Origin: Sphingobacterium alkalisoli
GTDB taxonomy: Bacteria; Bacteroidota; Bacteroidia; Sphingobacteriales; Sphingobacteriaceae
Direction of reading: 5' to 3'
Length of the DNA stretch: 64,000 nt
Assembly (NCBI RefSeq): GCF_005049105.1
Contig: NZ_SUKA01000001.1
Coordinates: 930,001 to 994,000, forward strand
The notes beneath the pieces are model-generated. The model was not told the origin of the DNA, searched no databases, and saw nothing but the letters and a program-made list of their open reading frames with translations. Below are positions 32,075 through 60,880 of the stretch, in pieces. A program made the translations under genes and the position numbers. Position 1 is the stretch's first letter, and each line of letters opens with the position of its first letter.

Positions 32075-32096
32075 TAACTTTTAAAATTATATTGGT

Positions 32097-34205: not shown

Positions 34206-34221
34206 TTCATTTTTGTTTGTT

Positions 34222-34252
34222 AGGTGTTGGAAGGTTCTACTTTCCAGCACCT
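34222..34252 (+). terminator. Hairpin between aldolase/dehydrogenase and isomerase genes
   Basis: Arms AGGTGTTGGAA (34222-34232) and TTCCAGCACCT (34242-34252) with one G-U pair and a 9-base loop, followed by TTATTT. It could be a partial terminator or a stability hairpin within the rhamnose operon. The U-tract is weak. Confidence 0.5.
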
Positions 34253-34301
34253 TTATTTACCAAGTATAAGTTTCGACTTGTAACTTTTTTATTTTGAGAA
34301 A

Positions 34302-35576: not shown

Positions 35577-35610
35577 ACGTTTTTTTTACTTAAATATTTT
35601 TTAATTTATT

Positions 35611-36960: not shown

Positions 36961-37060
36961 TTTCTTCAATGGCATCAATCCGTGGTACAATAGTGACTGG
37001 ATCGAACTGTGCCAGAACTTAGATCGCCACGTCATTCTTCCGAGGAAGACATTAAGGTTT

Positions 37061-37090
37061 AAGCCTGTTTACCCGTAGGTAGGCGGGCTT
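37061..37090 (+). terminator. Hairpin terminator after the rhamnulokinase gene
   Basis: Thirteen-base arms AAGCCTGTTTACC (37061-37073) and GGTAGGCGGGCTT (37078-37090) pair with three G-U pairs around CGTA, followed by TATCGGTTTTT. It is about 100 bases beyond the kinase stop, so it fits an operon-end terminator. It may also be part of a repetitive palindromic element. Confidence 0.65.
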
Positions 37091-37183
37091 TATCGGTTTT
37101 TCCATGCAGTGATGTAGTCCATAAGCCCTTCATCGCGAACCGGAGGTACGATGGTACGGCAGGAAGATGACCTTTGTTCGTGC

Positions 37184-37227
37184 AGGATGGCTCAGGTTGC
37201 GGAACTCGGATAAACCAGCTAATTTAG
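37184..37227 (+). promoter_or_regulatory. Promoter of the CE12 esterase with shared 19-nt motif
   Basis: AGGATGGCTCAGGTTGCGG (37184-37202) contains a -33-like TTG at 37197-37199. A 20-base spacer leads to the -7-like TAATTTAG at 37220-37227, 50 bases before the start codon. A copy with 17 of 19 identities and the same TTG-N20-TAnnTT geometry lies at 38746-38789. A shared activator site is inferred. Confidence 0.5.
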
Positions 37228-37276
37228 TGTCACGAATATAAACCGAACACACCGTAGATTTAACTGTTGACATCTT

Positions 37277-41146: not shown

Positions 41147-41162
41147 GAGTGCTGATCTCGAG

Positions 41163-44100: not shown

Positions 44101-44456
44101 AATCTACCGCTGTGATGAGCCGCTGGCGAAATGAGGGGGATGTAACGGATATGCCACGTGCTTTATTGGCAGAAGGATATAATTGGTTGGGATCGGATCG
44201 CTATGTGCAGGATGCTTCTTTTCTGCGTTTCAGATCGGCCACGGTGAGTTATAGTTTTGGTCAGGATCTGATGAAGCGTTTGGGAATGAGTGATTTAAGA
44301 ATGTATGTCACTGGGGAAAACTTCTTTACCTGGACAAACTATCTGGGACAAGATCCGGAAATCAATATGCAAAAAGGCATTTTTGGTGTGGCCTGGGATG
44401 ATTCCCGGACACCGCCCACCATGCGTTTTACGTTAGGACTATCCACTCGATTTTAA
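41163..44456 (+). CDS. SusC/RagA-type TonB-dependent receptor
   Basis: Outer-membrane importer of 1097 residues from ATG 41163. ATG 41193 (MKLQLNYIF) is an equally plausible start. The signal peptide ends NTYAQ. The carboxypeptidase-regulatory-like domain (about 37-115) begins LRGRVTDSQTKEPIVGATV. The plug includes SIDEALQGRLPGVDI, MSIRIRGTSSL, EPLIVVDGMPYE and TITVLKDAAATAVWGSRASNGV. The barrel ends with LGLSTRF. A longer frame starting at 41025 would overlap the FAS1 gene and was rejected. Paired with the SusD 22 bases downstream; presumably imports RG-I oligosaccharides. Confidence 0.96.
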   Translation: MVVEKKNNKPMKLQLNYIFSLMVLFLLMGAENTYAQTVLRGRVTDSQTKEPIVGATVAELASDNRTVTAVTTDMDGNYAITLKGATNRLNVSFIGYHVRTLPINNQTQLNVSLVSSDNQIEEVAISRQQTGTNTGLLNIAQRDLTTATATINAKVLQDMQSSSIDEALQGRLPGVDISANSGDPGSGMSIRIRGTSSLSGNAEPLIVVDGMPYETSIPGDFNFGTADEDGYAQLLNIAPADIETITVLKDAAATAVWGSRASNGVLLITTKRGTMSKPTINYSFRGSLSSLPDAIPLLNGNQYSQLIPEMVMNRTGTPLNTLTFKEFQYDPGDVYYYNNYSQNTDWIDAITQTGLSNDHTFSIQGGGEKARYYSSVGYLGQRGVTVGTGLERISARLNLDYEISDRIKFRTDIAYTHTVTDRNYVNTKDNQDNIRGLAYIKMPNMSLYEYDRYGNEMPVYFSPDRNIQGAYPGTYNPAAMAEYASNRHSGERITPVFNLKYDIIPSKLISDFQVMFDINNARVNNFLPQLATGRPYTETVVNRAGESDHDSFRLQTKANLIYFPIATEKHDLQMLLSWQTDEARGLNYESLISNTASTLLTDPSNPGRTQNNELALFAGMGESRSIGGLFSTQYKLNDKYIINAGLRADANSKFGANNRFGLFPSISTRWRVSGEEFMKNIPFINELSLRASYGQSGRAPRYDYLFYSNIVNNATSYLGETGVFPANMELRNLKWETVKGQNVGFNVEVWDRKVRLDVDFYRNRTVDMLFENLGVPNISGYNSIWLNSGTMDNQGWEVGLNATPYRTNDLTIDFSFNIARNMNVIREIPEFLVNEQGRGTVNGEFKRILQMNNPIGSFYGYRYEGVYSTTEETIAKDVDGNNIIGPDGEPVYMRFNYPYSDYVFQAGDARYADINNDGSIDERDIVYLGNSSPRLTGGFGPSVNIKNRLRIALFFNFRTGYDVVNGAMMHTTKMHNYDNQSTAVMSRWRNEGDVTDMPRALLAEGYNWLGSDRYVQDASFLRFRSATVSYSFGQDLMKRLGMSDLRMYVTGENFFTWTNYLGQDPEINMQKGIFGVAWDDSRTPPTMRFTLGLSTRF

Positions 44457-44478
44457 TGAAGATAATCTATAGAAAGAC

Positions 44479-45966
44479 ATGAAAAGAATCAATTTATATA
44501 TTTCCATTGTTCTGATAGCAATCTGCTCGCTATCGAGCTCCTGTACAAAATGGCTTGACCTCAAGCCACAGGATGGATTGGTAGAGCAGGATTTTTGGCA
44601 GACAAAGGAACATGTTCGTTCAGCGGTAAACGGTATCTATATTTCTTTAGTATCGAGTAATCTTGTGAGTTCACTCTTTATGCACGGCGAGATGCGTACC
44701 AACATGGTGGAGCTTACTGCTTTTACCACACAGATGCATGAAGAATATCGTTTTGCTAATCTAATGTCAACCAATACGTTTACCAATTGGGGTGATTTTT
44801 ATCGTATTATCAATTATTGTAATAATGTAATAGATAATGCACCAGGTGTAAAAGAGGTAGATCCGACCTTGCTTCAAGCCGATCTGGATGCGTACATCGG
44901 CGAGGCGTTAACCATACGCGCATGGATGTATTTTTATCTGGCCCGTATTTGGGGGGATGTACCGTTAAAATTAAATTATACGCAGTCGGATGACGATAAT
45001 CTAATGATTGCAAAATCCAGTCAGGAAGAAGTGTTGGCCGCTGTGGTTGCGGACCTGATTCGTGCAGAGGGAATGGTTAAGGAAACCTTTGCCACAACAA
45101 TTGCAGCCGACAAAGGGAAGGTAACTAAATATACGGTTAATGCCCTATTGGCAGATGTATATCTGTGGCAAGATGACTATTCCAAAGCGTTGGATGCCTG
45201 CGAGATGATTGTCAAGTCTGGCAAGTTTGAATTGGTCTCGGGAGATCCATCGACGTGGCTAAATGTGCTATTTGCAGTGGGTAATTCTTCTGAAGGTATA
45301 TTCGAATTGCAATACGATCGGCAGCAGTTAAATCCATTTCATAATCTCTTCATACAAAATCGTATTTATGCAGTAGGAGGAACTGTGTATGAATCGTTGT
45401 ACATGATTGATGAGAGCGATCCTGATAATTTTGATGTACGCGGAGATCGGGGTTCGCTAGATGCTTCTACAGGGCAAATCTACAAGTACCAAGGAATTAA
45501 CAGACAACAGCGTAAAACATTGGAAGAATCATATACCCACTGGATGGTATATCGCTATGCGGATGTTCTGTTGATGAAAGCTGAAGCTTTAAACGGCCTA
45601 AACGAAGGGCAGGAGGCGATAGATTTGATTTACGAGGTACGCGAGCGTGCAAATGCATTAGATTTGAACGATTTAACTCCTACCGAGGATGATCAGGCTA
45701 CGATAACAACATTTTTGGTTGCAGAACGGGCACGTGAATTTGCGTACGAGGGCAAGCGTTGGTTTGATGTCTTACGCCATGCGAGGCGGAATAATTATGC
45801 ACGTATAGATTTGATTACAAATATGGTAATGGAATACGCTCCTGCAGACCGGCAACAGTCCATGCTAGGCAAATACCGGGATCCGAATAGTCATTATCTG
45901 CCTATCTATTTTACTGAATTGCAGATGAACAAGGCATTGGTACAAAACCCGTTTTATAACAATTAA
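44479..45966 (+). CDS. SusD/RagB-family lipoprotein
   Basis: Glycan-binding surface lipoprotein of 495 residues, partner of the SusC upstream. Signal ends CSLSSSC with Cys22, followed by TKWLDLKPQDGLVEQDFW, the classic SusD N-terminus. EALTIRAWMYFYLARIWGDVPLKL is the conserved helix pair. The C-terminal region shows YRYADVLLMKAEALNGLNEG and ERAREFAYEGKRWFDVLRHAR. Substrate cannot be read, but the RG-I enzymes in the operon point to pectic oligosaccharides. Confidence 0.96.
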   Translation: MKRINLYISIVLIAICSLSSSCTKWLDLKPQDGLVEQDFWQTKEHVRSAVNGIYISLVSSNLVSSLFMHGEMRTNMVELTAFTTQMHEEYRFANLMSTNTFTNWGDFYRIINYCNNVIDNAPGVKEVDPTLLQADLDAYIGEALTIRAWMYFYLARIWGDVPLKLNYTQSDDDNLMIAKSSQEEVLAAVVADLIRAEGMVKETFATTIAADKGKVTKYTVNALLADVYLWQDDYSKALDACEMIVKSGKFELVSGDPSTWLNVLFAVGNSSEGIFELQYDRQQLNPFHNLFIQNRIYAVGGTVYESLYMIDESDPDNFDVRGDRGSLDASTGQIYKYQGINRQQRKTLEESYTHWMVYRYADVLLMKAEALNGLNEGQEAIDLIYEVRERANALDLNDLTPTEDDQATITTFLVAERAREFAYEGKRWFDVLRHARRNNYARIDLITNMVMEYAPADRQQSMLGKYRDPNSHYLPIYFTELQMNKALVQNPFYNN

Positions 45967-45978
45967 TACATTAAGGTT

Positions 45979-47637
45979 ATGAAAATAAAATATATAGAAA
46001 AAATAATGTACTGGACTTTGGGAGTCTGGATGCTTATGGTGCAGGGAGCTTGTGTTAAAGAAGATTTTACCCAAACTACTGACGTGACACCCAATATCGC
46101 TACCTTTTTGAAAAATTCGGAAGATTTTACAGTATTCTATGAAGCGGTTGTGAAAGCCGGTACAGCTGCTTATCTAGATGCTTGGGGTACGTATACAGTG
46201 TTTGCTCCAAATAATGTCGCAATGGACACTTACATCCGCAGCTTGGGTAAGAGTAAGGTCGCCGATCTCACGGACGAGGAAGCTAAATTGTTGGTAACAC
46301 AGCATATTGTGACTGATACGGTATCCACAGGCAATTTTAAAGATGGTAAAATTACAAAGAACTCCGTAGCGGGTCTGTTTATCACCACTTCCGTACGCAA
46401 TGTAGACGGACGCTCCGAAATTCTGCTTAATAAAGAATCGGTTATTATCTTACCTAACCAACGTACGGGAAATGGATTGGTACATGGGGTAGATAAAGTA
46501 TTCACGCCTATTACGCGTACGCTTATGGAAGAGATTCAGGCTAACCCAGAGCTTAGTTTATTTGCAGAAGCCTTACAAGAGACTGGCTTGGATGCAACCT
46601 TGAATATAGTTGAAGAAGAACAATATTTTTCGGTGTTAGCTGTGTCAAATGCCGTATTTGCACAGCGAGGTATTAATAGCTTAGCAGATTTACGAGACAA
46701 GTATTCCCATACAGGAAACCCGAAAAATCCGAATGATAGCCTTTATATGCATATGGCTTACCATATTGTACCTGATCTAAAATATGTGTCTGACCTTATG
46801 TTGCAAAATTCACATGTGACTAAGGTAAATAATGAGATTATTTTGGTAAAGGTTGATGGTGAGCGTGTGTTGATTAATGAAGAGGAGTGGTTGGGAAATA
46901 TCGAATTGGGTGCTGAAATCGATCGTAGCATCAGTGATAATACAACAAAAAATGGTGTGTTACATCAATTGAAAGATAATATCTTTATTAAAGCGCGTTT
47001 CCCTTTTCCAATTTATTGGGATCCAGCTGATCAACCTGAGATCAGGATAGCGGGTGTTTATGGTCGGGCTAATTTATCTGTAGCTAAAGGTTTTCTGAAA
47101 GACGTGAGTTGGGGAGGGGCTGAATCTGCGGCGATAGATTATGAAAGCTTGCTTGGAGCCAATATGATAGGAGCGGTTTATAATGATCTATTGATAGTTA
47201 ATTTACGCACAGCAGTTATACCTTGGATTGAACTCAAAACCCCCGTGATTGTAAAAGGACGCTACAAAGTGTGGATCAGTTGGCGTACAATAGATAGTCA
47301 GCAAGGCTCTAATACTATCGATGTATATGTAAACGGTGCGCAGCTTTCGCGCTCGATCGTTAACGGTGAGTATAGAAATAGAACTTTGCCAGCACGGGAA
47401 TTAGAGGCTTTAGGTTATAAGATGCATCTGGCTGGATCTCCTTCTGGGGCTAATAATTACAACACGAAGATGGTTGGTATTGTAGATATAAACTCGACAG
47501 ATCGGCATACCATACGGCTGGAAACGAAAACTAACCGCAATACGCCTTTTCGAATGGATATGATCCACTTCATACCTGTAGATATGGAACAGATCTATCC
47601 TGTATTCGATATCAATGGAAATGCCGTGTATCCATAA
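45979..47637 (+). CDS. FAS1 lipoprotein with C-terminal beta-rich domain (I)
   Basis: Surface lipoprotein of 552 residues. The lipobox is VQGAC (Cys25). Two FAS1 domains are evident: about 38-180 (TYTVFAPNNVAMDTYI ... GLVHGVDKVFTPI) and 181-340 (YFSVLAVSNAVF ... GVLHQLKDNIFI). The C-terminal 205 residues form a separate beta-rich module (RYKVWISWRTIDSQQ, NTIDVYVNGAQL, DMIHFIPVDMEQIYP) that looks like a carbohydrate-binding beta-sandwich, although I cannot name the family. It follows SusD by 12 bases. The gene at 47668 encodes a related but distinct protein. Confidence 0.87.
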   Translation: MKIKYIEKIMYWTLGVWMLMVQGACVKEDFTQTTDVTPNIATFLKNSEDFTVFYEAVVKAGTAAYLDAWGTYTVFAPNNVAMDTYIRSLGKSKVADLTDEEAKLLVTQHIVTDTVSTGNFKDGKITKNSVAGLFITTSVRNVDGRSEILLNKESVIILPNQRTGNGLVHGVDKVFTPITRTLMEEIQANPELSLFAEALQETGLDATLNIVEEEQYFSVLAVSNAVFAQRGINSLADLRDKYSHTGNPKNPNDSLYMHMAYHIVPDLKYVSDLMLQNSHVTKVNNEIILVKVDGERVLINEEEWLGNIELGAEIDRSISDNTTKNGVLHQLKDNIFIKARFPFPIYWDPADQPEIRIAGVYGRANLSVAKGFLKDVSWGGAESAAIDYESLLGANMIGAVYNDLLIVNLRTAVIPWIELKTPVIVKGRYKVWISWRTIDSQQGSNTIDVYVNGAQLSRSIVNGEYRNRTLPARELEALGYKMHLAGSPSGANNYNTKMVGIVDINSTDRHTIRLETKTNRNTPFRMDMIHFIPVDMEQIYPVFDINGNAVYP

Positions 47638-47667
47638 TGTAATTTAATGGAGTTTTAAAAATATATA

Positions 47668-49107
47668 ATGAAAAATAAAACTATATACATATTGAGCATC
47701 TTATTGCTTACGTCAATTTTAACGCATTGTACCGATCCATGGGACGATCACGTGAACGATGGAGTAACAAATGTTAATCAAAGCTTGCTCCAACGATTGG
47801 AGAGTGAGGCAAATGCGACCGTATTCCTGGATCTACTCAAGACTTCCGGATTAGACAAAAATCTTGATGGACGAAATGCTTATACGGTCTTTGCTCCGAC
47901 CAATGAAAGTATTCAATCGTTGGTAACCTCCCTAAAGACGGACCCTGAAGCCCTTGAGACCTTTGTTCAAAATCACATCGCAGTATCTACGCATCGTTTA
48001 AATACAGGTAGTGACACGGTGCAGATTACGATGCTGAACGGTAAAATTTTAGATTTGGTGAACTCGCAAATAGGTGGGGTTGCTTTTGCCAAGGCGAATC
48101 AAGGAAGTGCTGATGGACTGTACCATGTTATTAATACGCCGTTAATGCCCCAGCAAAATTTGTGGGAGTTTATTAACAGTAATACCGATTATGCCCAAAA
48201 TCAATTTGTGCTTAGTCTGAACACCTATAATTTACTAGACACTGCTGCTGGTCAAGATGATCCCGAAGACGAGTACCTAAACAATGAGTTTCTACATAAT
48301 TTAGCCGACGTACGTGTGGAGAAAGACCGATTTACTTATTTCGTATTAAATAATGCGACGTTTGAGCAAGAGGTCAATGGTTTCCTTCCTTATGTTAACT
48401 ACCGTAACGAAGCAGATTCTTCGTTAGCGATTAGCCGGTACCATATTGTAAAAGACCTGATATTTGCACAGGCTTACGACTTAGAAAGCCTACCGGATCA
48501 ATTGGTAAGTATCTCGGGTGTGCAGTTTCCAATTGATAAGAATGCAATTGTTGAAACGATACCCTTAAGCAATGGCTATATACACGTATTAAATACCTCT
48601 ACATTACCGGTGGCTAATAGGTTGTTAGACCTGGTTATTGAAGGAGAAGATTTTACAGGAACAACATCCTCCGTTTCTAATTCCACGTTTGTAAGAGAAA
48701 AAATGGATCCATCAGGAAATATCTTTCGGGATTTGATGATTCAGAACCACGGTGTATCCGCGTTAGGGGTGAGATATGCGTTGCCTTATCTGCTAAGTAC
48801 CAATTATGATGTTTACTGGCGGGCGGTAAATGATATTCAGACAAATGTGTTTCAGCAAAGAGTAGTCATGACAGATATAAATATGGTAGAAGATGAGTTT
48901 GGCGTACTTCGATACCCAACATTTCAAGAGTTTCCGTATATGAATGTGGAAGTGCGTAATTACAATGAAGTGTATTTAGGAGAGTTTGAATTAGCAGAGC
49001 TAAAACGTGTAAATGCCTTTTTAACAGGTGCGGCAGTCACGACAAACGGGAATAATACCATCGTGGCGGATTATCTGCGATTTGTACCAAAAGTAAAACA
49101 AAACTAA
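47668..49107 (+). CDS. FAS1 lipoprotein with C-terminal beta-rich domain (II)
   Basis: Surface lipoprotein of 479 residues. Signal ends SILTHC (Cys21). Two FAS1 domains: about 38-165 (AYTVFAPTNESIQSL ... GLYHVINTPLMP) and 170-320 (RFTYFVLNNATF ... GYIHVLNTSTLP). The C-terminal 155 residues end NTIVADYLRFVPKV, similar in layout to the C-terminal module of the gene at 45979 (DMIHFIPV). Together the pair sits between two SusC/D pairs. A shared role as surface scaffold or glycan-binding accessory is inferred; no enzyme motif is visible. Confidence 0.87.
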   Translation: MKNKTIYILSILLLTSILTHCTDPWDDHVNDGVTNVNQSLLQRLESEANATVFLDLLKTSGLDKNLDGRNAYTVFAPTNESIQSLVTSLKTDPEALETFVQNHIAVSTHRLNTGSDTVQITMLNGKILDLVNSQIGGVAFAKANQGSADGLYHVINTPLMPQQNLWEFINSNTDYAQNQFVLSLNTYNLLDTAAGQDDPEDEYLNNEFLHNLADVRVEKDRFTYFVLNNATFEQEVNGFLPYVNYRNEADSSLAISRYHIVKDLIFAQAYDLESLPDQLVSISGVQFPIDKNAIVETIPLSNGYIHVLNTSTLPVANRLLDLVIEGEDFTGTTSSVSNSTFVREKMDPSGNIFRDLMIQNHGVSALGVRYALPYLLSTNYDVYWRAVNDIQTNVFQQRVVMTDINMVEDEFGVLRYPTFQEFPYMNVEVRNYNEVYLGEFELAELKRVNAFLTGAAVTTNGNNTIVADYLRFVPKVKQN

Positions 49108-49119
49108 ACCAATTAGAAC

Positions 49120-52100
49120 ATGCAGTTGATACATAAATTATTTATAGGGGGATTTGCCTTAGTTACGTTTTTGCCTGTCGATATGCTGCAGGCAAGACAT
49201 AAGATGCTAGCTTCCTCTGCTATATATCGAAGCGAAATACAAGATATCGAGATCAAGGGGGTAGTGCGCTTTGCTTCCGACGGGGAACCTGTGTCGGGCG
49301 CAAATGTGAGTATAGAAGGTGTTTCTGTGGCGATTACCGAAGACGATGGTAGCTTTACAATTAAAGCCCGCTCCCAGAATGTGAAGCTGGTGGTGCAGTA
49401 TGCTGGTTATCAGGAAAAAATAGTTTTTTCTAAGGTTGGGGAGGAAAGTTTAGATATCCTGCTCTACGAAGCCGGATACAGTCCGTTATTCCAAACAACT
49501 AATCAATTCAATAGGGCGGTAAACAAAATGTCTACCGTTGGAGCGGTCGAGGTTCTTGATCTAAAAAAATATCAGTGGAACAGTACCATTAATGAAAACG
49601 CATCAACCATTTTTCAGGGGAAAATTGCTGGTCTGAATGCGGTTCGTCGGTCGGGAACAACTAATACGGGGGCTAATCTAACATTACGGGGCATCAGTTC
49701 TTTTTATGGCACTTCTCAACCTTTATTGGTCGTAGATGGTATGTTGTATGAAGATCAGGACTATAGCCACCAGTTGATCAGCAACTATTTCGAATCTGGA
49801 TTAGCTAATATTGATCTCCGCGATGTTGATAACATTACGGTTCTCAAAGATGGTTCATCACTCTATGGAACCAAGGGTAGCAATGGGGTTATTTTTATTA
49901 CGACCTCCCATGCAGACGAATTGGCTACGCATATCAATTTTGGTGCGTATACCAGCTTTAATCAACGGCCTAAGTTCCTACCGTTGATGGAAGCGAACGA
50001 TTACCGGTCTTACCTTTCCGAGCTGTTAAGAAGCCAGGGACTAAGCTCGGCAGAAATTGCTGAACAGCCCTATTTTGGAGCCGAGCCAAATACAATGGAT
50101 TACTATACCTATAATAACAACACGGATTGGCAATCGGTGGTATTTGATAATAGCATTAGTCAGAACTATTTTCTTAAAGTTACTGGCGGAGATAATATTG
50201 CGAAATATTCGCTATCAACAGGGTACATTCAGGATCAAGGGGTCTTAGTGAATGATGAAATCAGTAAGTATTCTATGCGGTTGAATGGGGATTTGCAGCT
50301 TTCGAAAAAATTTACGGTACAGTCTAACCTTTCTTTTTACTATAATCAACACAATCTACGTAGCCAGGGTGTCGGCTCTTATTCCAGCCCGATGCATGCA
50401 GCGCTCGTGAAATCACCAATATTATTTGCTAACGTATATGGTGACGATGGTGGTATTTCACCGCTCTTGTCCGACGTTGACATTTTTAATCAGACAAATC
50501 CAGCTGTACTGGTAAGCGATAATACGATAGGTAATAACCGGAGTTATCGTTTTATCGGAAATATACATTTTGACTTTAAATTCAATGACAACTATGCCTT
50601 AAAGAGTATTGCAGGTTTAGTTTACGACAAAGGACGTGAAAACTTTTTCCTGCCTGAGATTGGGGTTTTCGCCGAAAACCTGCCGACAGCAGAAGTTTCT
50701 AACCAGTCTGGAACAGAAATACGGAGATTGTTTAGTCTGTTTAACGATACGTACCTACATGCCACCAATCGATTTGGAGTGGATCATTTGTTAGACACAC
50801 GGGTCGGCATACGTGTGCAGTCGAATAAAGCGGAGCATGATTACGGCTTGGGATTTAACTCAGCAAATGATGACTATGTCAATATCGGCGCAGGCAGTAA
50901 TTTACTGAGACAGATTCGGGGCGGATTCGGTAACTGGAACTGGATGAATGTGTACTTAGCAAATAACTATTCGTATAAAGATCGGTATCTATTCTCTTGG
51001 GATGTAGCATTGGATGGATCTTCTCGCTTTGGTGACGATCCACAGAACAATATGGTAAAATTTGGCCAGAATGCTTTTGCCGTTAATTCAGCTGTTAATG
51101 CGGCGTGGATTGTATCAGCGGAGAATTTCTTTCAATCGTCAGCGGTAGATCTTCTAAAATTAAGAGCGTCTTTTGGGCTAAGCGGTAACGACGATATCGG
51201 AGATTACGCTGCCAAATCCTACTATTTGTCACAGAATTTGTTAGGTGTGCAGGGCTTGATCCGCGGTAATATCGGTAATCCAAAATTACAGTGGGAACGG
51301 GCGATTAAAACGAATGTCGGAGCAGACCTGTCATTTGCCAATGAACGTATCAATCTATCCGCCGATGTGTACAACAATCAGTTCAAAGATGTGGTTACAT
51401 ACCAAGGTTTACAGGCGCATTCAGGTATTGATGTGGTCTTTCTCAACGGAGCTTCAATGCGCAATCTGGGTGTAGAAGTAGGTATCAATGGACGACTTGT
51501 TCACAATAAGAATACGACGTTTGATATCGGTATACAATTGTCAAAATACCGTAATGAAGTAACGTCTCTTCCTGATGGAGCTTTTGAGACATCGTATTAC
51601 GGCGGCGATATGATTACAGAAGTCGGGTCTGCAGCCAATCAATTCTATGGACTACAGACACAAGGTATCTATTCAACCTCAGAAGAGGCTGCATCCGCAG
51701 GATTGAACCGGCAGCTGTCAGATGGAAGTTTATTGCCTTTTCAAGCAGGAGACATGCATTTTATAGATCAAAACGGAGATGAAATTATTGACGCACGCGA
51801 TAAGGTAATTATCGGCAATCCCAATCCAGATTGGTTTGGTGCCTTTACCACTTCATTAACGTATAAAAGCTGGTCTTTTAATACCGTGTTTACCTATTCG
51901 ATTGGTAATGATGTATACAATGCGGTACGGAGAAATGCAGAAAGCGGATCTAATTATGATAACCAAAGTATTGCTGTGGTAAACCGCTGGAAAGAAGAGG
52001 GGCAGTTAACAAATGTTCCGAGAGCAAATTGGGGTGATCCGTTGAACAATGCCGAGTTTTCGGATCGCTGGATTGAAGATGGCTCTTACTTGAGATTACG

Positions 52101-52314
52101 GACGGTAAATATTGGTTATCGCCTACCTTTAAATAAGGCTGTGTTGAAGTCAGTTGATATATATTTCGCGGCGAACAATTTATTTACGCTATCGAAATAT
52201 CTCGGCTATGATCCGGAATTCAGTGGAAACAATTCCATTTTCAGCCAAGGTGTGGATATTGGCATGTCGCCTCAATATAGAATGTTACAGTTGGGCATTC
52301 GGGCTGGGTTTTAA
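49120..52314 (+). CDS. SusC-type TonB-dependent receptor, second of the locus
   Basis: Outer-membrane receptor of 1064 residues. Signal peptide followed by LQARHKM. A regulatory-like beta-sandwich at about 43-120 (IEIKGVVRFASDGEPVSGANV). The plug has ASTIFQGKIAGLNAV, ANLTLRGISSF, QPLLVVDGMLYE and NITVLKDGSSLYGTKGSNGVI. The barrel ends GIRAGF. It follows the FAS1 gene by 12 bases and pairs with the SusD 84 bases downstream. The ARHK element after the signal is shared with the receptor at 5919-8897, suggesting a common sub-type. Confidence 0.96.
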   Translation: MQLIHKLFIGGFALVTFLPVDMLQARHKMLASSAIYRSEIQDIEIKGVVRFASDGEPVSGANVSIEGVSVAITEDDGSFTIKARSQNVKLVVQYAGYQEKIVFSKVGEESLDILLYEAGYSPLFQTTNQFNRAVNKMSTVGAVEVLDLKKYQWNSTINENASTIFQGKIAGLNAVRRSGTTNTGANLTLRGISSFYGTSQPLLVVDGMLYEDQDYSHQLISNYFESGLANIDLRDVDNITVLKDGSSLYGTKGSNGVIFITTSHADELATHINFGAYTSFNQRPKFLPLMEANDYRSYLSELLRSQGLSSAEIAEQPYFGAEPNTMDYYTYNNNTDWQSVVFDNSISQNYFLKVTGGDNIAKYSLSTGYIQDQGVLVNDEISKYSMRLNGDLQLSKKFTVQSNLSFYYNQHNLRSQGVGSYSSPMHAALVKSPILFANVYGDDGGISPLLSDVDIFNQTNPAVLVSDNTIGNNRSYRFIGNIHFDFKFNDNYALKSIAGLVYDKGRENFFLPEIGVFAENLPTAEVSNQSGTEIRRLFSLFNDTYLHATNRFGVDHLLDTRVGIRVQSNKAEHDYGLGFNSANDDYVNIGAGSNLLRQIRGGFGNWNWMNVYLANNYSYKDRYLFSWDVALDGSSRFGDDPQNNMVKFGQNAFAVNSAVNAAWIVSAENFFQSSAVDLLKLRASFGLSGNDDIGDYAAKSYYLSQNLLGVQGLIRGNIGNPKLQWERAIKTNVGADLSFANERINLSADVYNNQFKDVVTYQGLQAHSGIDVVFLNGASMRNLGVEVGINGRLVHNKNTTFDIGIQLSKYRNEVTSLPDGAFETSYYGGDMITEVGSAANQFYGLQTQGIYSTSEEAASAGLNRQLSDGSLLPFQAGDMHFIDQNGDEIIDARDKVIIGNPNPDWFGAFTTSLTYKSWSFNTVFTYSIGNDVYNAVRRNAESGSNYDNQSIAVVNRWKEEGQLTNVPRANWGDPLNNAEFSDRWIEDGSYLRLRTVNIGYRLPLNKAVLKSVDIYFAANNLFTLSKYLGYDPEFSGNNSIFSQGVDIGMSPQYRMLQLGIRAGF

Positions 52315-52398
52315 TAAAATAATCGGATTAGTAACAGTCCATGTGGAATGTGTATAAACGATACTCCATATGGACATTAAAAGATAAATAATATACAT

Positions 52399-54147
52399 AT
52401 GAAACGGAAGACCTTATATGGTGTATGTCTTGCCTTCTCGCTATGGGGATTGTCATCCTGCTCCAAATTTTTGGATGTTGAGCCAGAAGAAGTGCTGTTG
52501 AAGGAACAGATGTACCGTAATATTTTTGATGCAGATGCTGCAGTAATAGGTGTTTACGGAAAGTTTCTCGGCCTCGCCGAGCAGCATGTGCTTTTGAATG
52601 AGCTGCGCGCGGATCTATTAACTGTGACGCCACAGGCGGATCCGTACTTACACGAAATCAATAGCAACGATGTGACGGCAATGAGCGCCAATAATCCGTA
52701 CATCAACCCGCGTAAATTTTACGAAGTAATACTGGCCTGCAACGATGTGCTGACAAACTTTAATGCCATGCGCGACGACAATAAAATGGATATTGACCAA
52801 TACAATAGCCGTTATTCGGATATCATGGGCATCCGAACTTGGGTATATTTACAACTGGGAATACATTACGGTAATGTGCCTTACGTGACCGATCCGTTGG
52901 AGAGTATGGATGATGTATTGGACAATAACAAATATCCGATTATAGCATTTGAGCAGTTGCTGTCAAATCTGATCCGGGACATGGAAAATATTCCGTACAA
53001 AGGACTTTATCCTGACGATGAATCGCTGCGTCTTGCGGTAGATGGTTTTAACCTCGAACGTTTTTTTATAAACAAGTATACCTTATTAGGAGATTTGTAT
53101 CTCTGGAATAACGATTACCTCAAGTCCGCAGATGCCTATAAGCGAGCCATGACCTATTATGATAATAAAGGTAATGATACTTGGAATTTTGATTATTTTA
53201 AGTTAAAAGAACGCTCTGTAACAAACAACAATGACCTGTCGATAGGGTACGCCCGATTTAGGGAACAAGATATCCGGACATTTGTAAACAGCAAAACCTT
53301 GGGTTGGCGCTCGATGTTCTCCCGTTCGCAGGATGCCTTATGGAACTCGGAATGGGTGTGGACTATGCCCTTCGCCAGTAATTTTGGACAAACCAATCCC
53401 TTTATACGTTATTTTGCGATCAATGGAGGTGAGTACCTGCTAAAACCAAGTAAAGAAGTCATTGACTTATGGGATGAACAGGAACAATGGAACGGTGTGC
53501 CTTATGATGGGCGTAAATTGCTTTCGGTAACGAATGTAGACGACCGTCCGGTAATCACTAAATATACCGATGAGTATGCCGATATTACGACCTTACTTCC
53601 AGTAGACGAATACAACCGGAATGGGAAATGGTTCCTTTACCGCGCAGCGAAATTGCATTTGCGTTTTGCGGAAGCCGCTAATAGGGATGCAAAACATAAG
53701 CTTGCCTATGCTTTACTGAATAACGGTCTACGCGGAAATTACGATGACCCGACACAAACGGATAAGACTGACTTGATGCAAACACATCTGCCTTGGCCGT
53801 ACGATTTTGATGCAAGGATGGGAGCAAATCCGTATTTCCGGGGCATTTGGCACCGTAATGAAGGCATACGCTCTCGCGCGTATCTTCAAAGTAGGGTTAT
53901 TGAAAACCCGGCAGATAGTCTAATGCATATTGAGAATTATTTAATCGAAGAAGGAGCTTTAGAGCTAGCTTTTGAAGGGAGCCGATGGGAGGATTTGGTA
54001 CGTATAGCACGTAGACGTAATGATCCTGCGTTTCTTGCCGATAAGGTATACGAAAAATTGAGCAAGGAAGGCGTTGGGAATGCATCCGCTATTCGCAGTA
54101 AGTTGATGCAACCGGAGAATTGGTATTTACCATTTCGTTGGGAGTAA
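52399..54147 (+). CDS. SusD/RagB-family lipoprotein, second of the locus
   Basis: Lipoprotein of 582 residues, longer than the 495 and 501 residue SusD proteins in this window. Signal ends LWGLSSC (Cys21), followed by SKFLDVEPEEVLLKEQMY. The helix GIRTWVYLQLGIHYGNVPYVTDPL is the usual SusD core, and LELAFEGSRWEDLVRIARRRND is the C-terminal signature. The extra length lies in the middle (about 230-420). Expected to form a lid complex with the SusC at 49120. Confidence 0.95.
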   Translation: MKRKTLYGVCLAFSLWGLSSCSKFLDVEPEEVLLKEQMYRNIFDADAAVIGVYGKFLGLAEQHVLLNELRADLLTVTPQADPYLHEINSNDVTAMSANNPYINPRKFYEVILACNDVLTNFNAMRDDNKMDIDQYNSRYSDIMGIRTWVYLQLGIHYGNVPYVTDPLESMDDVLDNNKYPIIAFEQLLSNLIRDMENIPYKGLYPDDESLRLAVDGFNLERFFINKYTLLGDLYLWNNDYLKSADAYKRAMTYYDNKGNDTWNFDYFKLKERSVTNNNDLSIGYARFREQDIRTFVNSKTLGWRSMFSRSQDALWNSEWVWTMPFASNFGQTNPFIRYFAINGGEYLLKPSKEVIDLWDEQEQWNGVPYDGRKLLSVTNVDDRPVITKYTDEYADITTLLPVDEYNRNGKWFLYRAAKLHLRFAEAANRDAKHKLAYALLNNGLRGNYDDPTQTDKTDLMQTHLPWPYDFDARMGANPYFRGIWHRNEGIRSRAYLQSRVIENPADSLMHIENYLIEEGALELAFEGSRWEDLVRIARRRNDPAFLADKVYEKLSKEGVGNASAIRSKLMQPENWYLPFRWE

Positions 54148-54189: not shown

Positions 54190-57100
54190 ATGAAAAGAAT
54201 TCTTTCAATAGGAATAATTTGTTTAGTCACCCTTGTTTCTTTAGGGTTCATCGCATTAGATAGATCCCGTATCGTATTGATCGGAGATTCTACGGTGCGT
54301 AGCGGACAAGAAGAATGGCCCAACGGTGTATTATGGGGTTGGGGTACTTCGCTAAAGGAGCTATATGAAGACGATAGGGTTGAAATTGTCAACCGTGCAC
54401 AAGGGGGGGAAAGTAGCCGTACCTTTTATGCTAGTGGTAAATTTACGCAGGTATTAGAAGAATTGCAAGCAGGAGATATCCTGTTACTACAGTTTGGACA
54501 TAACGATGCAGGTAGTGTTACCGGGGATAGTAAGGCAAGTTTGCGCGGAATAGGAGATAATATACAGAATGTGACAAATTCACAGGGACAGCAGGAGGTG
54601 GTACATTCTTATGGCTGGTACTTGCGTCAGTTTATACAATTGGCGAAAGAGAAAGGTGTCAAGCCGGTCGTTGCCTCTCCTGTGCCACGAAATGCTTTTG
54701 TGGAGGGTTTTACAGTCCGTTCCTTAGAAGAGTGGGGGCTGTGGTCAAGACAAGTGGCTGAACAGGAAAGTGTTGATTTTCTAGACTTGAATAACCGTGT
54801 CGCAGATTTATATGACTTTATGGGGGAAGATGCTGTTGCCGAATTTTTTCCGGACGACAACCTGCACACCAATAAGGCTGGCGCTGATGCCACGGCAGAG
54901 ATTGTGTACAATGGACTTGTAGCTTTGAATATCATCTCTATTGATGATAGTGCCCCCGAAAATATATGGGAAATTATGGGTAATGATAACCAAATTTCGG
55001 ATGTAGCCACTGCATACGGGTCTGCGGTAGGTCGAGTGGAAGGTGGCGTAGAAGTTCCCTACGCTGTTTTTACAAGTTCGGCGGATGGTTTGGTTGTTAA
55101 GAAAAGGAATGCATCCGGACAGTGGGAGCAAGTAGGGACAGCATTGACTGACTATAAGTTTACAAACAGCGGTAATAGGCAGGCTATTGCGCAGTCATAC
55201 CTGTGGCTCGGTAAGGATAATGTGCTCTATTGCTCGTATGTTGACGGCAGTGACGGCCACAGGCTGAAGATCGTTTACTATAAGGAAGCGGCGGAAAGTT
55301 GGGAGCCTCTGGGTGACAATGCCGCTAACCTACAGGTTAGCACAGGCGGTATAAGCCCTTGGGGTACAAATAACATACGCGACCAGGTGAATCATTACGT
55401 TGCGTTTGACAAGAACAATGTCCTGTATATTGCATATGGTGAAACTCCAACCAACACGCGTAAAGGGGCAGCCCATGTAAAGCGTTTTGTAGGTGGGGCA
55501 TGGGAATTAGTAGGAGGCGGAGCCATCCCTATAGAAGGTGCTCCTAGTTATGGAGCGGCTGGGTATTCGGTTGCATTTGACAGCCAAAACCGTCCCTTTG
55601 TTTCGTATGCCTGGAGCGCGAATAATCCGGACGAAGTGGGAGCTGTTCAGGTCAGGTATTTCGATGCGGGCAGTTGGAAGACTTTAGGCGATGTCACGTC
55701 TTCGGGGCAGGGCAGTTCCGCTCGTTATACCCAGATGGGTATTTCTAACGACATGGTCTTTGTCTATTTTATGAATACCGGATCGGGCAGCAGGCCATTT
55801 TTGGTGTATTCACCCATAGCGGATCCATCTTGGACCAACTTGCGGATGGCCGATCATGCAAACTCGGTCAATGAGCAGCTTGTTGTAGATGCTGCGGGCA
55901 ATATGACCATATCCCACATGGAAAGCTGGGGCAATATCTATGTGTATCATTTGACAAAAAGCAAGATTGCTGAAATTTCCACGTCCTCTCCTTTGACGTT
56001 AGCAAGCTTTATAACGTTGGAGAAGTCAGCGGAGACAGCACTTGTAGATGCCGGTGCCCGGCTGTCGATGAGTGTGTCGGCAAGTGGAGACCCTTATATC
56101 CTTTATACGAAAAATGAACGACCTTTTGTACAACGCTATCTGTTCCCGAAGATTGATTTTATACCAAATACTTGGGAAATTATGGGTAGTGATAACCAGA
56201 TTTCGGATGTAGCGAGTGCGTACGGGTCTGCGGTAGGTCGAGTGGAAGGTGGCGTAGAAGTTCCTTACGCTGTTTTTACAAGTTCGGCGGATGGTTTGGT
56301 TGTTAAGAAAAGAAATGCATCCGGACAGTGGGAACAGGTAGGGGCAGCGTTGACTGACTACAAGTTTACAAACAGCGGTAATAGGCAGGCTATTGCGCAG
56401 TCATACCTGTGGCTCGGTAAGGATAATGTGCTTTATTGCTCGTATGTTGACGGCAGTGACGGCCACAGGCTGAAGATCGTTTACTATAAGGAAGCGGCGG
56501 AAAGTTGGGAGCCTCTGGGTGACAATGCTGCTAACCGACTTGTTAGCACAGGCGGTATAAGTCCTTGGGGTACAAATAATATACGCGACCAGGTGAATCA
56601 TGCTGTCGCATTTGATAGGGACAATGTTCTGTATGTTGTATATGGGGAAGCTCCAACCAACACGCGTAAAGGGGCAGCCCATGTAAAGCGTTTTGTAGGT
56701 GGAGCATGGGAATTAGTAGGAGGCGGAGCCATCCCTATAGAAGGTGCTCCTAATTATGGAGCTGCTGGTTTTTCTATTGCATTTGATAGCCAAAACCGTC
56801 CCTTTGTTTCGTATGCCTGGAGCGCGAATAATCCGGACGAAGTGGGAGCTGTTCAGGTCAGGTATTTCGATGCGGGCAGCTGGAAGACTTTAGGTGATGT
56901 CACTTCTTCGGGGCAGGGCAGTTCTGCTCGTTTTACCCAGATGGGTATTTCGAACGATATGGTCTTCGTCTATTTTATGAATACCGGATCGGGCAGCAGG
57001 CCCTTTTTGGTGTATTCTCCTATAGCGGATCCATCTTGGACCAACTTGCGGCTGGCCGATCATGCTAGTTCGGTAAGTGAGCGGCTGGTCGTAGATGCCG

Positions 57101-59970
57101 GGGGCAATATGACCATATCCCACATGGAAAATTGGGGGAATATCTATGTTTATCATTTGTCGAAGAGCAAGATTGCCGCTATTAGCGCCTCTTCTCCTTT
57201 GACAGCAGCAAGTTTCTTAACGTTGGAACAGTCGACAGAGACGTCTGTTGTAGATGCCGGTTCCCGGCTGTCGATGAGTGTGTCAGCAAATGGGAAGCCC
57301 TATATCCTTTATACGAAAAATGAAAGACCTTTTGTACAGCGTTATCACTTGGTGGTGGATGAAACAGAAGAACCTGAGCCGGAACCCGAGCCAGACGAGG
57401 TCGTAACAACAGCCAGATGGATGGAAACACTGGATCGTGGCGTTGTAGCTGTCCGCCCTGCTAATAACCGTGTTTTTGTCAGCTGGCGGCTGTTGGGCGA
57501 TGAAACCATGGATTTGGGATTCAATGTGTACCGTGATGATATCAAGCTCAATGAAGAACCTATTACCGGTTCGACAAACTATCAGGATGTGACAGAGATA
57601 AACGGTAAATATATCGTGGTTCCTGTGGTCAACGGCGAAGAAGGCACGCCTTCCAAAGAAGTGGACGTATGGAGCCAGGGTTATCTTTCTATTCCAATGG
57701 ACATACCACCCACAGGTGTAGCCCAAGATGGAACTCCATATACCCATACAGCGAACGATCTAAGTGTGGGGGATTTAGATGGCGACGGTGAATATGAAGT
57801 TATTGTGAAATGGGAACCCACGCTTTCCGGCGATAATTTGCAGGGCCAGCGCGGAAAAGTTTATTTAGATGCGTACAAATTGAACGGAACCAAATTATGG
57901 CGGATAGATCTTGGAATAAATATACGTGCAGGTGCACACTACACGCAGTTTTTAGTGTACGATTTCGACGGGGATGGGAAAGCAGAGTTAGCATTACGTA
58001 CCTCGGATGGTACAGTTGATGGAACAGGCGTGGTTATTGGCGACGCCAATGCCGATCATCGTGAACCCAGTGGTTTTATTCTTTCAGGACCGGAATTTTT
58101 AACGGTATTCGAAGGAATGACTGGTAAAGCATTGGCTACAGTAGATTATATACCTGAGCGTGGGCGTGTGGCAGACTGGGGCGACCTTTACGGTAACCGG
58201 GTTGACCGTTTCATTGCAGCGGTAGCTTATTTAGATGGCGAACGTCCAAGTATGGTATTTGGACGGGGATATTATACCCGTATGGTTCGAGCAGCATGGG
58301 ATTGGCGAGATGGAAAACTTACCCAAAGATGGGTCTTCGATACAAACACGAAAGGCAATGAAGCGCATTTTGGTCAGGGTAATCACCAGATGTCGGTAGC
58401 CGATGTAGATAATGACGGAAAAGATGAGATACTCAATGGTGCAAGTGTAGTCAATGACAACGGAAGAAAATTTTATAGTACGGGTCGAGGTCATGGAGAT
58501 GCCCTTCATGTAAGCCAAATGGATCCAACTAAGGATCGGCAGTTGGTCTGGATGCCGCATGAATCGCCAAGTTCTTACAAAGATTTAGCGATCACATTAG
58601 TCGATGCATCGACAGGTGAGACCATCTTTGGTATACCTGCCACGAGGGACATTGGTCGTGCCATGGCTGCCGATATTGATCCGCGCTACAAAGGCTACGA
58701 GATGTGGTCTGCTGCGGGCGGCTTGTATAATGTAAATGGCACTCAAGTCACACCTGCAAAACCGAGCTCTATGAACTTTGGAATTTGGTGGGACGGTGAT
58801 CTTTTGCGAGAATTATTGGACGGGACCAATATTGATAAGTGGGATTGGAATAACAATTCGACGAAACGTTTGGCGACTTTTGGTAACCAAGGTGCATTGT
58901 CGAATAACAGTACGAAGGCCACACCAGGTTTAAGTGCAGATGTTCTTGGCGACTGGCGAGAAGAGGTCATCTATCGTTCAGAAGACAGCAAGCAGCTGAT
59001 GGTGTTCACTACGGCGATACCTACAGAACATCGGTTGTATACGTTGATGCATGATTCGCAGTATCGCACGGCAATTGCGTGGCAGAACAGCGGCTATAAT
59101 CAACCGCCCCATCCTAGTTTTTATCTAGGAGAGGAGATGGTTGAGCAAGAGCAGCCTAATATAGCGTTGTTGGAACTGGAGAAAAAGGAACAGGAAATTG
59201 ATTTCCCTGAGTTTCCAGCGCTCACCTTCGATCTCGCACAAGTACGTCCAGAAGCGACAGCAACCTCCGGATTAAGAATTGACTACACAACGGACAACCC
59301 GCAGGTGGTTACGGTAGAAAACCAACAATTGAAGTTTGTTGGTATAGGAACCGCTAATATTACCGCGGTACAGAAGGGCAATATTACTTGGGAAGCCGCC
59401 GATCCTGTTACGAAATCACTGTCAATAGCGAAAGGAATACAGACGATTAGCTTTGAAGATTTGCCAACGCTGACGGTAAGTGACGATCCTTATCTAACGG
59501 AAGTAGAAAGCAGTTCCGGCCTGCCCGTGTCACTCGAGTCTATGGACACACGCCTTGCTACTATTGAGGGCGACCATGTCGCTGTACACCAAGGTGGGCG
59601 TACAGAGATTGTTGCGAAACAAGCTGGTAATGAATTGTGGCAAGCAGCCGATCCGGTGAGCAAGGATCTCGAGATTTTAGAGAAGCCATCCATGGATGTG
59701 GTGAAAGTAGTCACTCCCAATGGCGACGGAGACAATGATGTGTTGATTGTGAGAGAGATTGAGCGTTATCCGGAAAACACATTCCGTGTATTTAATCGCC
59801 AGGGGCAGATGCTCGCCGATATCGAGAACTACAACAATGCAGATAGGGTGTTTGACGGAAAAGACACCTCTGGGAATTTGCTCCAGGAAGGAACTTATTT
59901 CTTCAAGCTGGAATGGTTACAGGACGGTAAAAAGTTGCAACAAAGTGGTTGGTTTTATTTAAAAAGATAA
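54190..59970 (+). CDS. Giant CE12 esterase - double propeller - PL11 rhamnogalacturonan lyase with T9SS type-B tail
   Basis: Secreted protein of 1926 residues. Order: signal peptide (1-22); CE12/SGNH acetylesterase (about 25-250) with IGDSTV (Ser34), RAQGGESS, QFGHNDAG (Asn105) and DDNLHTN (Asp223/His226); two nearly identical predicted propellers (260-661 and 662-1052); an acidic EPEPEPEP linker; PL11 rhamnogalacturonan lyase (about 1075-1650) with calcium-loop motifs DLDGDGEYE (1195), DFDGDGK (1258) and DVDNDGKDE (1405); two Ig-like/MBG repeats (about 1665-1835); and a gliding-type C-terminal domain (1837-1926, TPNGDGDNDVL and VFDGKDTSGNLLQEGTYFF). It should deacetylate and cleave RG-I outside the cell. 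Export by T9SS with PorP/SprF help is inferred. Confidence 0.94.
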   Translation: MKRILSIGIICLVTLVSLGFIALDRSRIVLIGDSTVRSGQEEWPNGVLWGWGTSLKELYEDDRVEIVNRAQGGESSRTFYASGKFTQVLEELQAGDILLLQFGHNDAGSVTGDSKASLRGIGDNIQNVTNSQGQQEVVHSYGWYLRQFIQLAKEKGVKPVVASPVPRNAFVEGFTVRSLEEWGLWSRQVAEQESVDFLDLNNRVADLYDFMGEDAVAEFFPDDNLHTNKAGADATAEIVYNGLVALNIISIDDSAPENIWEIMGNDNQISDVATAYGSAVGRVEGGVEVPYAVFTSSADGLVVKKRNASGQWEQVGTALTDYKFTNSGNRQAIAQSYLWLGKDNVLYCSYVDGSDGHRLKIVYYKEAAESWEPLGDNAANLQVSTGGISPWGTNNIRDQVNHYVAFDKNNVLYIAYGETPTNTRKGAAHVKRFVGGAWELVGGGAIPIEGAPSYGAAGYSVAFDSQNRPFVSYAWSANNPDEVGAVQVRYFDAGSWKTLGDVTSSGQGSSARYTQMGISNDMVFVYFMNTGSGSRPFLVYSPIADPSWTNLRMADHANSVNEQLVVDAAGNMTISHMESWGNIYVYHLTKSKIAEISTSSPLTLASFITLEKSAETALVDAGARLSMSVSASGDPYILYTKNERPFVQRYLFPKIDFIPNTWEIMGSDNQISDVASAYGSAVGRVEGGVEVPYAVFTSSADGLVVKKRNASGQWEQVGAALTDYKFTNSGNRQAIAQSYLWLGKDNVLYCSYVDGSDGHRLKIVYYKEAAESWEPLGDNAANRLVSTGGISPWGTNNIRDQVNHAVAFDRDNVLYVVYGEAPTNTRKGAAHVKRFVGGAWELVGGGAIPIEGAPNYGAAGFSIAFDSQNRPFVSYAWSANNPDEVGAVQVRYFDAGSWKTLGDVTSSGQGSSARFTQMGISNDMVFVYFMNTGSGSRPFLVYSPIADPSWTNLRLADHASSVSERLVVDAGGNMTISHMENWGNIYVYHLSKSKIAAISASSPLTAASFLTLEQSTETSVVDAGSRLSMSVSANGKPYILYTKNERPFVQRYHLVVDETEEPEPEPEPDEVVTTARWMETLDRGVVAVRPANNRVFVSWRLLGDETMDLGFNVYRDDIKLNEEPITGSTNYQDVTEINGKYIVVPVVNGEEGTPSKEVDVWSQGYLSIPMDIPPTGVAQDGTPYTHTANDLSVGDLDGDGEYEVIVKWEPTLSGDNLQGQRGKVYLDAYKLNGTKLWRIDLGINIRAGAHYTQFLVYDFDGDGKAELALRTSDGTVDGTGVVIGDANADHREPSGFILSGPEFLTVFEGMTGKALATVDYIPERGRVADWGDLYGNRVDRFIAAVAYLDGERPSMVFGRGYYTRMVRAAWDWRDGKLTQRWVFDTNTKGNEAHFGQGNHQMSVADVDNDGKDEILNGASVVNDNGRKFYSTGRGHGDALHVSQMDPTKDRQLVWMPHESPSSYKDLAITLVDASTGETIFGIPATRDIGRAMAADIDPRYKGYEMWSAAGGLYNVNGTQVTPAKPSSMNFGIWWDGDLLRELLDGTNIDKWDWNNNSTKRLATFGNQGALSNNSTKATPGLSADVLGDWREEVIYRSEDSKQLMVFTTAIPTEHRLYTLMHDSQYRTAIAWQNSGYNQPPHPSFYLGEEMVEQEQPNIALLELEKKEQEIDFPEFPALTFDLAQVRPEATATSGLRIDYTTDNPQVVTVENQQLKFVGIGTANITAVQKGNITWEAADPVTKSLSIAKGIQTISFEDLPTLTVSDDPYLTEVESSSGLPVSLESMDTRLATIEGDHVAVHQGGRTEIVAKQAGNELWQAADPVSKDLEILEKPSMDVVKVVTPNGDGDNDVLIVREIERYPENTFRVFNRQGQMLADIENYNNADRVFDGKDTSGNLLQEGTYFFKLEWLQDGKKLQQSGWFYLKR
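54967..56172 (+). repeat. First copy of a 1.2-kb in-frame tandem repeat (propeller 1)
   Basis: Encodes residues 260-661. The unit is repeated at a 1206-base offset with long identical nucleotide runs, for example 55150-55310 against 56356-56516 with only isolated changes. Seven internal blades can be seen, each with a hydrophobic strand, an Asp/Asn-containing loop and a Trp-containing strand (WEQVG, WEPLG, WELVGG, WKTLG, WTNLR). Confidence 0.9.
56173..57345 (+). repeat. Second copy of the 1.2-kb tandem repeat (propeller 2)
   Basis: Encodes residues 662-1052 and starts with WEIMGSDNQISDVASAYG against WEIMGNDNQISDVATAYG in the first copy. The differences are few, scattered, and mostly conservative, which points to recent duplication or ongoing gene conversion. 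It is joined to the lyase by the acidic Glu-Pro linker. Confidence 0.9.
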
Positions 59971-59971
59971 G

Positions 59972-60880
59972 ATGAGAAAAACAGGATATTTTTACCGTTC
60001 TTTCATAGCGGTATTCATGATAAGCATACTAGCAGTAGAAGTCAATGCCCAGCAACAGCTCGGAACATATTTGCAATATCAACAGCATCCCGAAGCGATC
60101 AATTCGGCCTATACGCTGGCTTCTGATCAGGCCAAAGTTTACAGTGTGGGCCGTAAGCAATGGATGGGAATTGATGGCGCCCCAGCGACCGTATTGTTGG
60201 GGGGGCATATCAAGACCTCTAATGAACGTTCTGCAGTCGGGTTTAATCTGTTGTATGACAAGATCGGTCCCGAACGCTATACGGAAGCCAGTGCCTTTTA
60301 TGGGCATAGCATCCAGTTGTCCGAAAATGATTATATATCAGGTACCGTCGGACTAGGGTTGCGATTTTATAATGTGCGTTTTGCGCTGCTCGAACAGAGC
60401 GATCAGTCGTTGCGAAGTGATATTAATGAGCGGGTAGGAAGCATAGGTCTATCTTTCCTTTACCATAGACCTGAGCAATTTTATGTTGGTGTATCGGTGC
60501 CACGTATTGGAGCAGAACAGTTTAAAGAAGTCCAAGTCTTCCGTGAGAATTATTCAGCTGTAGCTGCATACCTCTTTACGGTAGACCAAGGGTTTCATGT
60601 GAAAGCAGCAACCTGGCTTTCTATGATGGATAATGAGGAGATGCTCGGTAACTTTTCGGCTACGGCCTACTTCAATCGTAAGATAGGCTTAGGCCTTAAC
60701 TATGGCACGAGCAGAGATATGGGTGTTATCGCATCCTTTCAGGTGAGCAATAGTTTCAAATTTGGCTATGGTTACCAGTTTGGGGTAGCTAGTACAAATA
60801 TCTCTGGAATGCGTAATGGTTCACATGAGATTTCTTTAAGCTATCATTTTTCAAAGGGAGGGGGACTTCGGTTACTTTAG
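59972..60880 (+). CDS. PorP/SprF-family outer-membrane protein
   Basis: Outer-membrane beta-barrel of 302 residues with a signal peptide ending VNAQQ. PorP/SprF features are QLGTYLQYQQHPEAINSAY near the N-terminus, RKQWMGIDGAPATVLLGGH, a GFNLLYDKIGP segment and SLSYHFSKGGGLRLL at the C-terminus. Family members (PorP, SprF) assist secretion or attachment of T9SS cargo with type-B C-terminal domains. It starts one base after the stop of the giant lyase gene, whose tail is of that type, so it is the probable dedicated partner. Confidence 0.93.
   Translation: MRKTGYFYRSFIAVFMISILAVEVNAQQQLGTYLQYQQHPEAINSAYTLASDQAKVYSVGRKQWMGIDGAPATVLLGGHIKTSNERSAVGFNLLYDKIGPERYTEASAFYGHSIQLSENDYISGTVGLGLRFYNVRFALLEQSDQSLRSDINERVGSIGLSFLYHRPEQFYVGVSVPRIGAEQFKEVQVFRENYSAVAAYLFTVDQGFHVKAATWLSMMDNEEMLGNFSATAYFNRKIGLGLNYGTSRDMGVIASFQVSNSFKFGYGYQFGVASTNISGMRNGSHEISLSYHFSKGGGLRLL

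Follow-up and report, generated by a model that had tools for sequence, protein, structure and literature searches.

The closest described counterparts of the protein analyzed here combine a CE12 acetylesterase and a PL11 rhamnogalacturonan lyase on one chain. An in silico survey listed 50 such proteins in CAZy, none of them characterised, with CE12:PL11 or CE12:CBM35:PL11 architectures; one protein was modelled as CE12:CBM35:PL11, and synergy of the two families has already been proposed (PMC10483417). The catalytic domains have structurally solved relatives in 1DEO, a single-domain fungal rhamnogalacturonan acetylesterase (RGAE) of family CE12, and in YesW (2z8r) and 4cag, which are PL11 lyases without an esterase, extra propellers or a T9SS tail. 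For export, the nearest parallels are SprB/SprF and PG1035/PorP, in which cargo with a type B C-terminal domain (CTD) has a PorP-like partner, although neither SprB nor PG1035 is an RG-I enzyme; PorP-like proteins appear to anchor type B T9SS cargo (PMC9143113). Multimodular flavobacterial enzymes such as CelAly likewise unite multiple catalytic and binding domains in a single secreted polypeptide, but the targets of CelAly are cellulose and alginate (PMC13235733).

The window, a stretch of 64,000 nucleotides from Sphingobacterium alkalisoli (5.78 Mb genome, 22 contigs), contains a gene that fuses CE12, two propellers, PL11, two Ig-like domains and a T9SS type B CTD in one frame (54190..59970, + strand, ATG to stop, 1926 aa). 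The preliminary description had implied that this exact architecture was new. For the CE12 and PL11 pairing as such, novelty had to be rejected in view of the CAZy entries already reported, whereas no description of a propeller-bearing T9SS version of it was found in the open-licence literature. Proteins such as Metabacillus HUW50_16055 carry both of these catalytic families, arranged in the order found in the fused protein, and the CE12:CBM35:PL11 members have a proposed RG-I-binding module between the catalytic domains (PMC10483417). They differ in having CBM35, or no listed CBM, where the fused protein has two propellers, and neither a T9SS tail nor a PorP/SprF partner is described for them. 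Pfam gave no CBM in aa 258-1060 of the fused protein, the region modelled as propeller; CBM35 is itself reported for some of the fusions only. Judged by its sequence, the Sphingobacterium protein is thus a variant on a known pairing, and its architecture is conserved in four species.

Domain organisation and active sites

The expectation that a CE12/SGNH esterase, two 400-residue repeats, a PL11 lyase and a type B tail share a single 1926-residue frame was borne out by profile and PDB searches. All parts named earlier are present, but two Ig-like domains and the adjoining PorP/SprF gene had been missed. The domains, all on the + strand, begin with a CE12/SGNH rhamnogalacturonan acetylesterase-like domain (54271..54939, aa 28-250), recognised by Lipase_GDSL_2 (aa 31-233, 4e-13, Pfam/NCBIfam) and by a PDB match to the CE12 enzyme 1deo (3e-25). 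Propeller repeat 1 (54964..56154, aa 259-655) and repeat 2 (56170..57363, aa 661-1058) follow; over about aa 258-655 and 660-1060 they are 90-91% identical to each other in protein and 91% in DNA. An acidic/proline linker read from the sequence, EEPEPEPEPDEV (57370..57405), leads from propeller 2 to the PL11 rhamnogalacturonan lyase (57418..59157, aa 1077-1656). This domain consists of an RGI_lyase beta domain (aa 1077-1161, 2e-27) and RGL11_C (aa 1165-1656, 3.5e-234), with both profiles fully covered, and has PDB sequence matches to 4cag and 2z8r. Two Ig-like repeats seen in the sequence (59170..59685, aa 1661-1832) precede the T9SS type B C-terminal sorting domain (59695..59967), to which CHU_C (aa 1836-1924, 4.6e-19) and TIGR04131 (aa 1836-1926, 1.8e-12) match at the very C-terminus. 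The Ig-like and tail region (~aa 1665-1926) also matches other large open frames, which are T9SS type B proteins of the genus. A putative N-terminal signal peptide was recognised by eye.

Two doubts had been raised about the fused protein, namely that its frame might be an assembly artefact and that one of its active sites might be dead. A chance frame or assembly error was ruled out because homologues with the same architecture occur in three congeners: S. olei HAL-9 (1930 aa, 83% identity), G007 (1873 aa, 62% identity, in a one-contig genome) and G085, in which the interior of the repeats is a run of N (L051:7898-9515). PL11 was found in 115 of 400 genomes in a search at the level of the Sphingobacteriaceae, and three of the four fused frames were the longest among the frames listed; the fourth, that of G085, is shortened by its N run. 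Elsewhere in the Bacteroidota, the long PL11 frames that were read, drawn from 395 genomes across the phylum and 400 of the family, included no CE12-PL11 fusion.

As to the second doubt, both catalytic domains retain their key residues. In the SGNH test of the CE12 domain, the catalytic Ser, Asp and His and the oxyanion Gly and Asn were all present, with S34, G73, N105, D223 and H226 aligning with S9, G42, N74, D192 and H195 of 1DEO. The PL11 domain is complete and keeps every catalytic and calcium residue checked against YesW: H1399, H1435, R1490, K1576 and Y1636 correspond to H363, H399, R452, K535 and Y595, the Arg, Lys and Tyr having catalytic or binding roles and the His belonging to the calcium site (PMC8787155). 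D1437 is likewise conserved. Furthermore, the alignment showed that the domain lacks a YesX-type insertion. It is the insertion loop of YesX that makes this enzyme exo-acting, and because it is absent the PL11 domain of the fused enzyme is probably endo-acting.

Fold, occurrence and candidate role of the propellers

The 400-residue repeats had been proposed to be propellers, and fold prediction agrees, the AlphaFold2 model of the propeller having a pLDDT of 80 and a pTM of 0.87. A PDB search with the propeller sequence gave no match up to E 10, and Pfam gave only BNR_4, which matched weakly in four of the six members (best E-value 2e-7). Among solved structures of sugar-active proteins, the nearest folds were the GH145 group (BT3686 and its relatives), the PL42 L-Rha-α1,4-GlcA lyase, the PL24 and PL25 ulvan lyases, whose likeness was found by Foldseek, and the PLL/PHL lectins, which bind fucose or rhamnose. 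Z scores against the model were about 25 for GH145 and 24-25 for PL42, and GH145, PL42 and the lectins together ranged from 23 to 25. The structural matches, which include 5mul, 5mum, 7esk-n, 6byp and 5uam as well as PLL lectins, are only 10-13% identical to the propellers. Since propellers share their fold across many functions, and the top VIA-align row for the model was CylK, an unrelated enzyme, the fold alone does not fix what these domains do.

What the sugar-active matches have in common, besides the fold, is that their substrates or ligands contain L-Rha or L-Fuc. Several of the best ones (5mul, 5mum, 7esk-n, 6byp and 5uam among them) are enzymes that act on L-Rha-(1->4)-uronate linkages, and this likeness, with the weak BNR_4 matches, would fit propellers that are not binders but a third catalytic activity on Rha-uronate linkages, as in GH145, PL42, PL24 and PL25. 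We consider this improbable. The histidines on which such enzymes depend are H85/H105 in FoRham1, H146/H167 in LOR_107 (PL24/PL42) and His48 in BT3686, and BT3686 itself does not act on RG-I (PMC8377490). In a sequence alignment of 19 members of the propeller family, neither the PL24/PL42 pair nor His48 has a counterpart that is conserved throughout, and no His is invariant. One His is kept in 14 of the 19, with Tyr or Phe at that position in the fused protein, and the Arg beside it is invariant in all 19 (propeller residue 254, protein residue 511). Because the catalytic histidines of GH145, PL24 and PL42 have no invariant counterpart here, the propellers are more likely to bind than to catalyse.

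The distribution of the family points in the same general direction. One genome per species was scanned for 84,980 species, and matches were read frame by frame. Within Sphingobacterium, clear matches were found in only 4 of 94 genomes, namely the host, S. olei, G007 and G085. Propellers lie upstream of PL11 without CE12 in ten Flavobacterium-type loci, Pedobacter, Paradesertivirga and Parapedobacter composti, and the family search added two further propeller-PL11 frames (L154 and L155). The Flavobacterium propeller-PL11 proteins share the propeller family and a T9SS tail with the fused protein but carry just one propeller, include a segment resembling FN3 and end in a type A tail. In Parapedobacter composti two propellers, as in the fused protein, stand ahead of PL11 and Ig repeats, and the tail is of type B; CE12 is absent. 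The Flavobacterium palustre protein (L104:8869-14127) has its propeller in front of a rhamnogalacturonan lyase of family PL4, and it also contains cadherin-like repeats and a tail similar to T9SS type A. The occurrence of the propeller with two unrelated families of RG-I lyase, PL11 and PL4, is the strongest argument for a role on RG-I and suggests an undescribed family of RG-I-binding propellers. The earlier proposal that the propellers are glycan-binding spacers is thus plausible from the modelled fold, whose nearest relatives have L-Rha, L-Rha-uronate or L-fucose as substrate or ligand, and from this co-occurrence. If true, it would add a new family of pectin-binding propellers with members on two unrelated RG-I lyases.

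As a separate observation, the tandem propellers of the Parapedobacter protein (L092:8881-14112) and of a Botryobacter protein (L105:7237-11478) are near-identical within one protein, which suggests repeated homogenisation or duplication.

Descent of the fused gene and exchange of its propellers

A PL11 tree was obtained by quick search with SH-aLRT support. In it, the enzymes with propellers group together, the four fused proteins make up a single clade (100), and the Parapedobacter propeller-propeller-PL11-Ig-CTD protein stands next to this clade (94). In the CE12 tree, the four fused domains also form one clade (100), on a long branch. The grouping in the PL11 tree is explained most simply if CE12 was added last. 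The propeller-PL11 unit would accordingly be old in Bacteroidota, and CE12 was apparently appended later, in one Sphingobacterium clade.

Comparison with S. olei revealed a recombination cassette within the gene (54937..57354, + strand), in which the DNA is near-identical whereas fourfold sites in the gene around it are saturated. DNA identity is 97.4% for propeller 1 (91% at fourfold sites) and 92.4% for propeller 2 (81%), against 24-32% fourfold-site identity for CE12, PL11, Ig and CTD. On the left the cassette starts abruptly, near codon 250, and exact runs inside it reach 323 bp; on the right it tapers off at about codons 1000-1060. For comparison, atpD, the rhamnose genes and the neighbours are 46-76% identical at fourfold sites, and a glyoxalase gene is 87% identical. 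The propellers are therefore more alike between the two species than most backbone genes, though the block surrounding them is saturated. A simple transfer of 97% identical propellers between distant species was also considered and rejected: judged by atpD and the rhamnose genes, S. olei is a close relative.

In the PL11 tree, the closest lyase to that of the S. alkalisoli protein is the one of G007 (92), not the S. olei enzyme, whereas the propellers of S. alkalisoli and G007 share just 36-40% identity. With PL11 nearest to G007 and the propellers nearly identical to S. olei, the propeller pair has a recent past that the rest of the gene does not share, and these comparisons indicate that it was exchanged between species as a cassette. 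The two propeller copies of G007 are 67% alike and closer to each other than to those of any other protein; the same within-protein similarity was seen by eye in Parapedobacter, and both fit concerted change or repeated duplication.

The exchange can also be read in a way that has nothing to do with binding of RG-I. If the propellers were mere spacers, or adhesion modules for a target other than RG-I, pressure on a surface-exposed protein and not substrate recognition could have moved them, and it is the propeller cassette that moved between species; the more distant Botryobacter protein, moreover, has such propellers without a recognised lyase. We regard this as unlikely, as 14 of the 16 closest loci have PL11 (counting the fused protein of S. 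olei) and one has PL4. An undescribed group of RG-I-binding propellers, common to PL11 and PL4 lyases in Bacteroidota and passed between species as a cassette within a surface enzyme that has its own deacetylase, remains a tentative proposal, to which we give a little less than an even chance. The putative binding part would then have been exchanged in spite of deep divergence in the catalytic domains and in the PUL around them, and substrate recognition may accordingly be the fastest-adapting part of the surface enzyme. The propeller family and its exchange are of more interest than the esterase-lyase pairing.

Beyond the propellers, the block from SusC1 to the PorP gene (41025-60880, compared with S. 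olei L126-L129) is syntenic yet saturated, at about 24-32% fourfold identity. In species this close, the pattern looks like the replacement of one PUL core allele by another.

Export, genomic surroundings and working model

The fused gene is the last of an RG-I/rhamnose PUL. Upstream on the + strand lie genes for GH28 and for L-rhamnose uptake and catabolism (RhaT, RhaD-dehydrogenase, isomerase and kinase; 29398..38590), a segment that includes a second SGNH esterase (37277-38590). Two SusC/SusD pairs (41025-45966 and 49120-54147; block 41025..54147) accompany the CAZymes, as expected of a PUL. SusC1 (41025-44456), SusD1 (44479-45966) and SusC2 (49120-52314) were assigned by reading the sequence and SusD2 (52399-54147) by Pfam, all on the + strand; genes for fasciclin-domain proteins (38921-41146, 45979-47637 and 47668-49107) are interleaved with them. 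As listed, the frame of SusC1 shares 122 bases with that of the first fasciclin protein, and the true start of SusC1 is probably downstream of the listed 41025.

Two bases past the stop codon of the fused gene begins a gene for an outer-membrane protein of the PorP/SprF family (59972..60880, + strand; PF11751 8.6e-37, TIGR03519 1.1e-40). PorP/SprF genes are also found downstream in homologous loci, and the genome encodes SprA and seven PorP/SprF proteins above the family cut-off. The adjoining protein is likely to be the anchor or shuttle of the fused enzyme, and with the type B CTD it supports the surface anchoring that had been suggested from the sequence, by analogy with the systems described in PMC9143113.

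From the enzyme activities, the cooperation of the domains and the binding role of the propellers, as we infer them, a working model can be drawn. The two propellers would keep the RG-I backbone close to the cell while CE12, at the N-terminus, removes its acetyl groups, and PL11 would then cleave the Rha-(1->4)-GalA backbone so exposed through beta-elimination. The two SusCD pairs would import the RG-I pieces, and GH28, GH105/88 and the rhamnose genes would finish them; GH88/105 genes are located elsewhere in the genome and would act on the unsaturated ends. A T9SS-exported, PorP/SprF-anchored surface enzyme of this kind, in which the propellers hold, CE12 deacetylates and PL11 cuts, is in our judgment reasonably probable.

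The genome also contains a standalone PL11 gene beside two standalone CE12-like genes, none with a T9SS tail, and in most PL11-bearing congeners PL11 and two CE12-like genes are likewise separate neighbours. Linkage of CE12 and PL11 is thus not needed for function, and this arrangement, with the 800-residue propeller block that lies between the two sites, would suit a fusion that does no more than place two independent enzymes under a single T9SS export signal and brings no cooperation in cis. Such an account is doubtful but has to be weighed seriously; the Bacillota protein with the same two families fused in the same order (PMC10483417) would fit a benefit of linkage and is suggestive only. 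Under the preferred model of a cooperating surface enzyme, the fused protein would be the front end at the cell surface and the separate PL11/CE12 set would be periplasmic, although this second, CTD-less set may do the same job. If the model is true, the fused enzyme offers a natural test of whether linking deacetylase and lyase helps on acetylated pectin.

A further frame of 3149 aa in the same genome (G000:C16:167221-168909) has the same Ig/type B tail, with another PorP/SprF gene close behind it. It would be one more giant surface protein of type B, and that PorP/SprF protein its likely partner.
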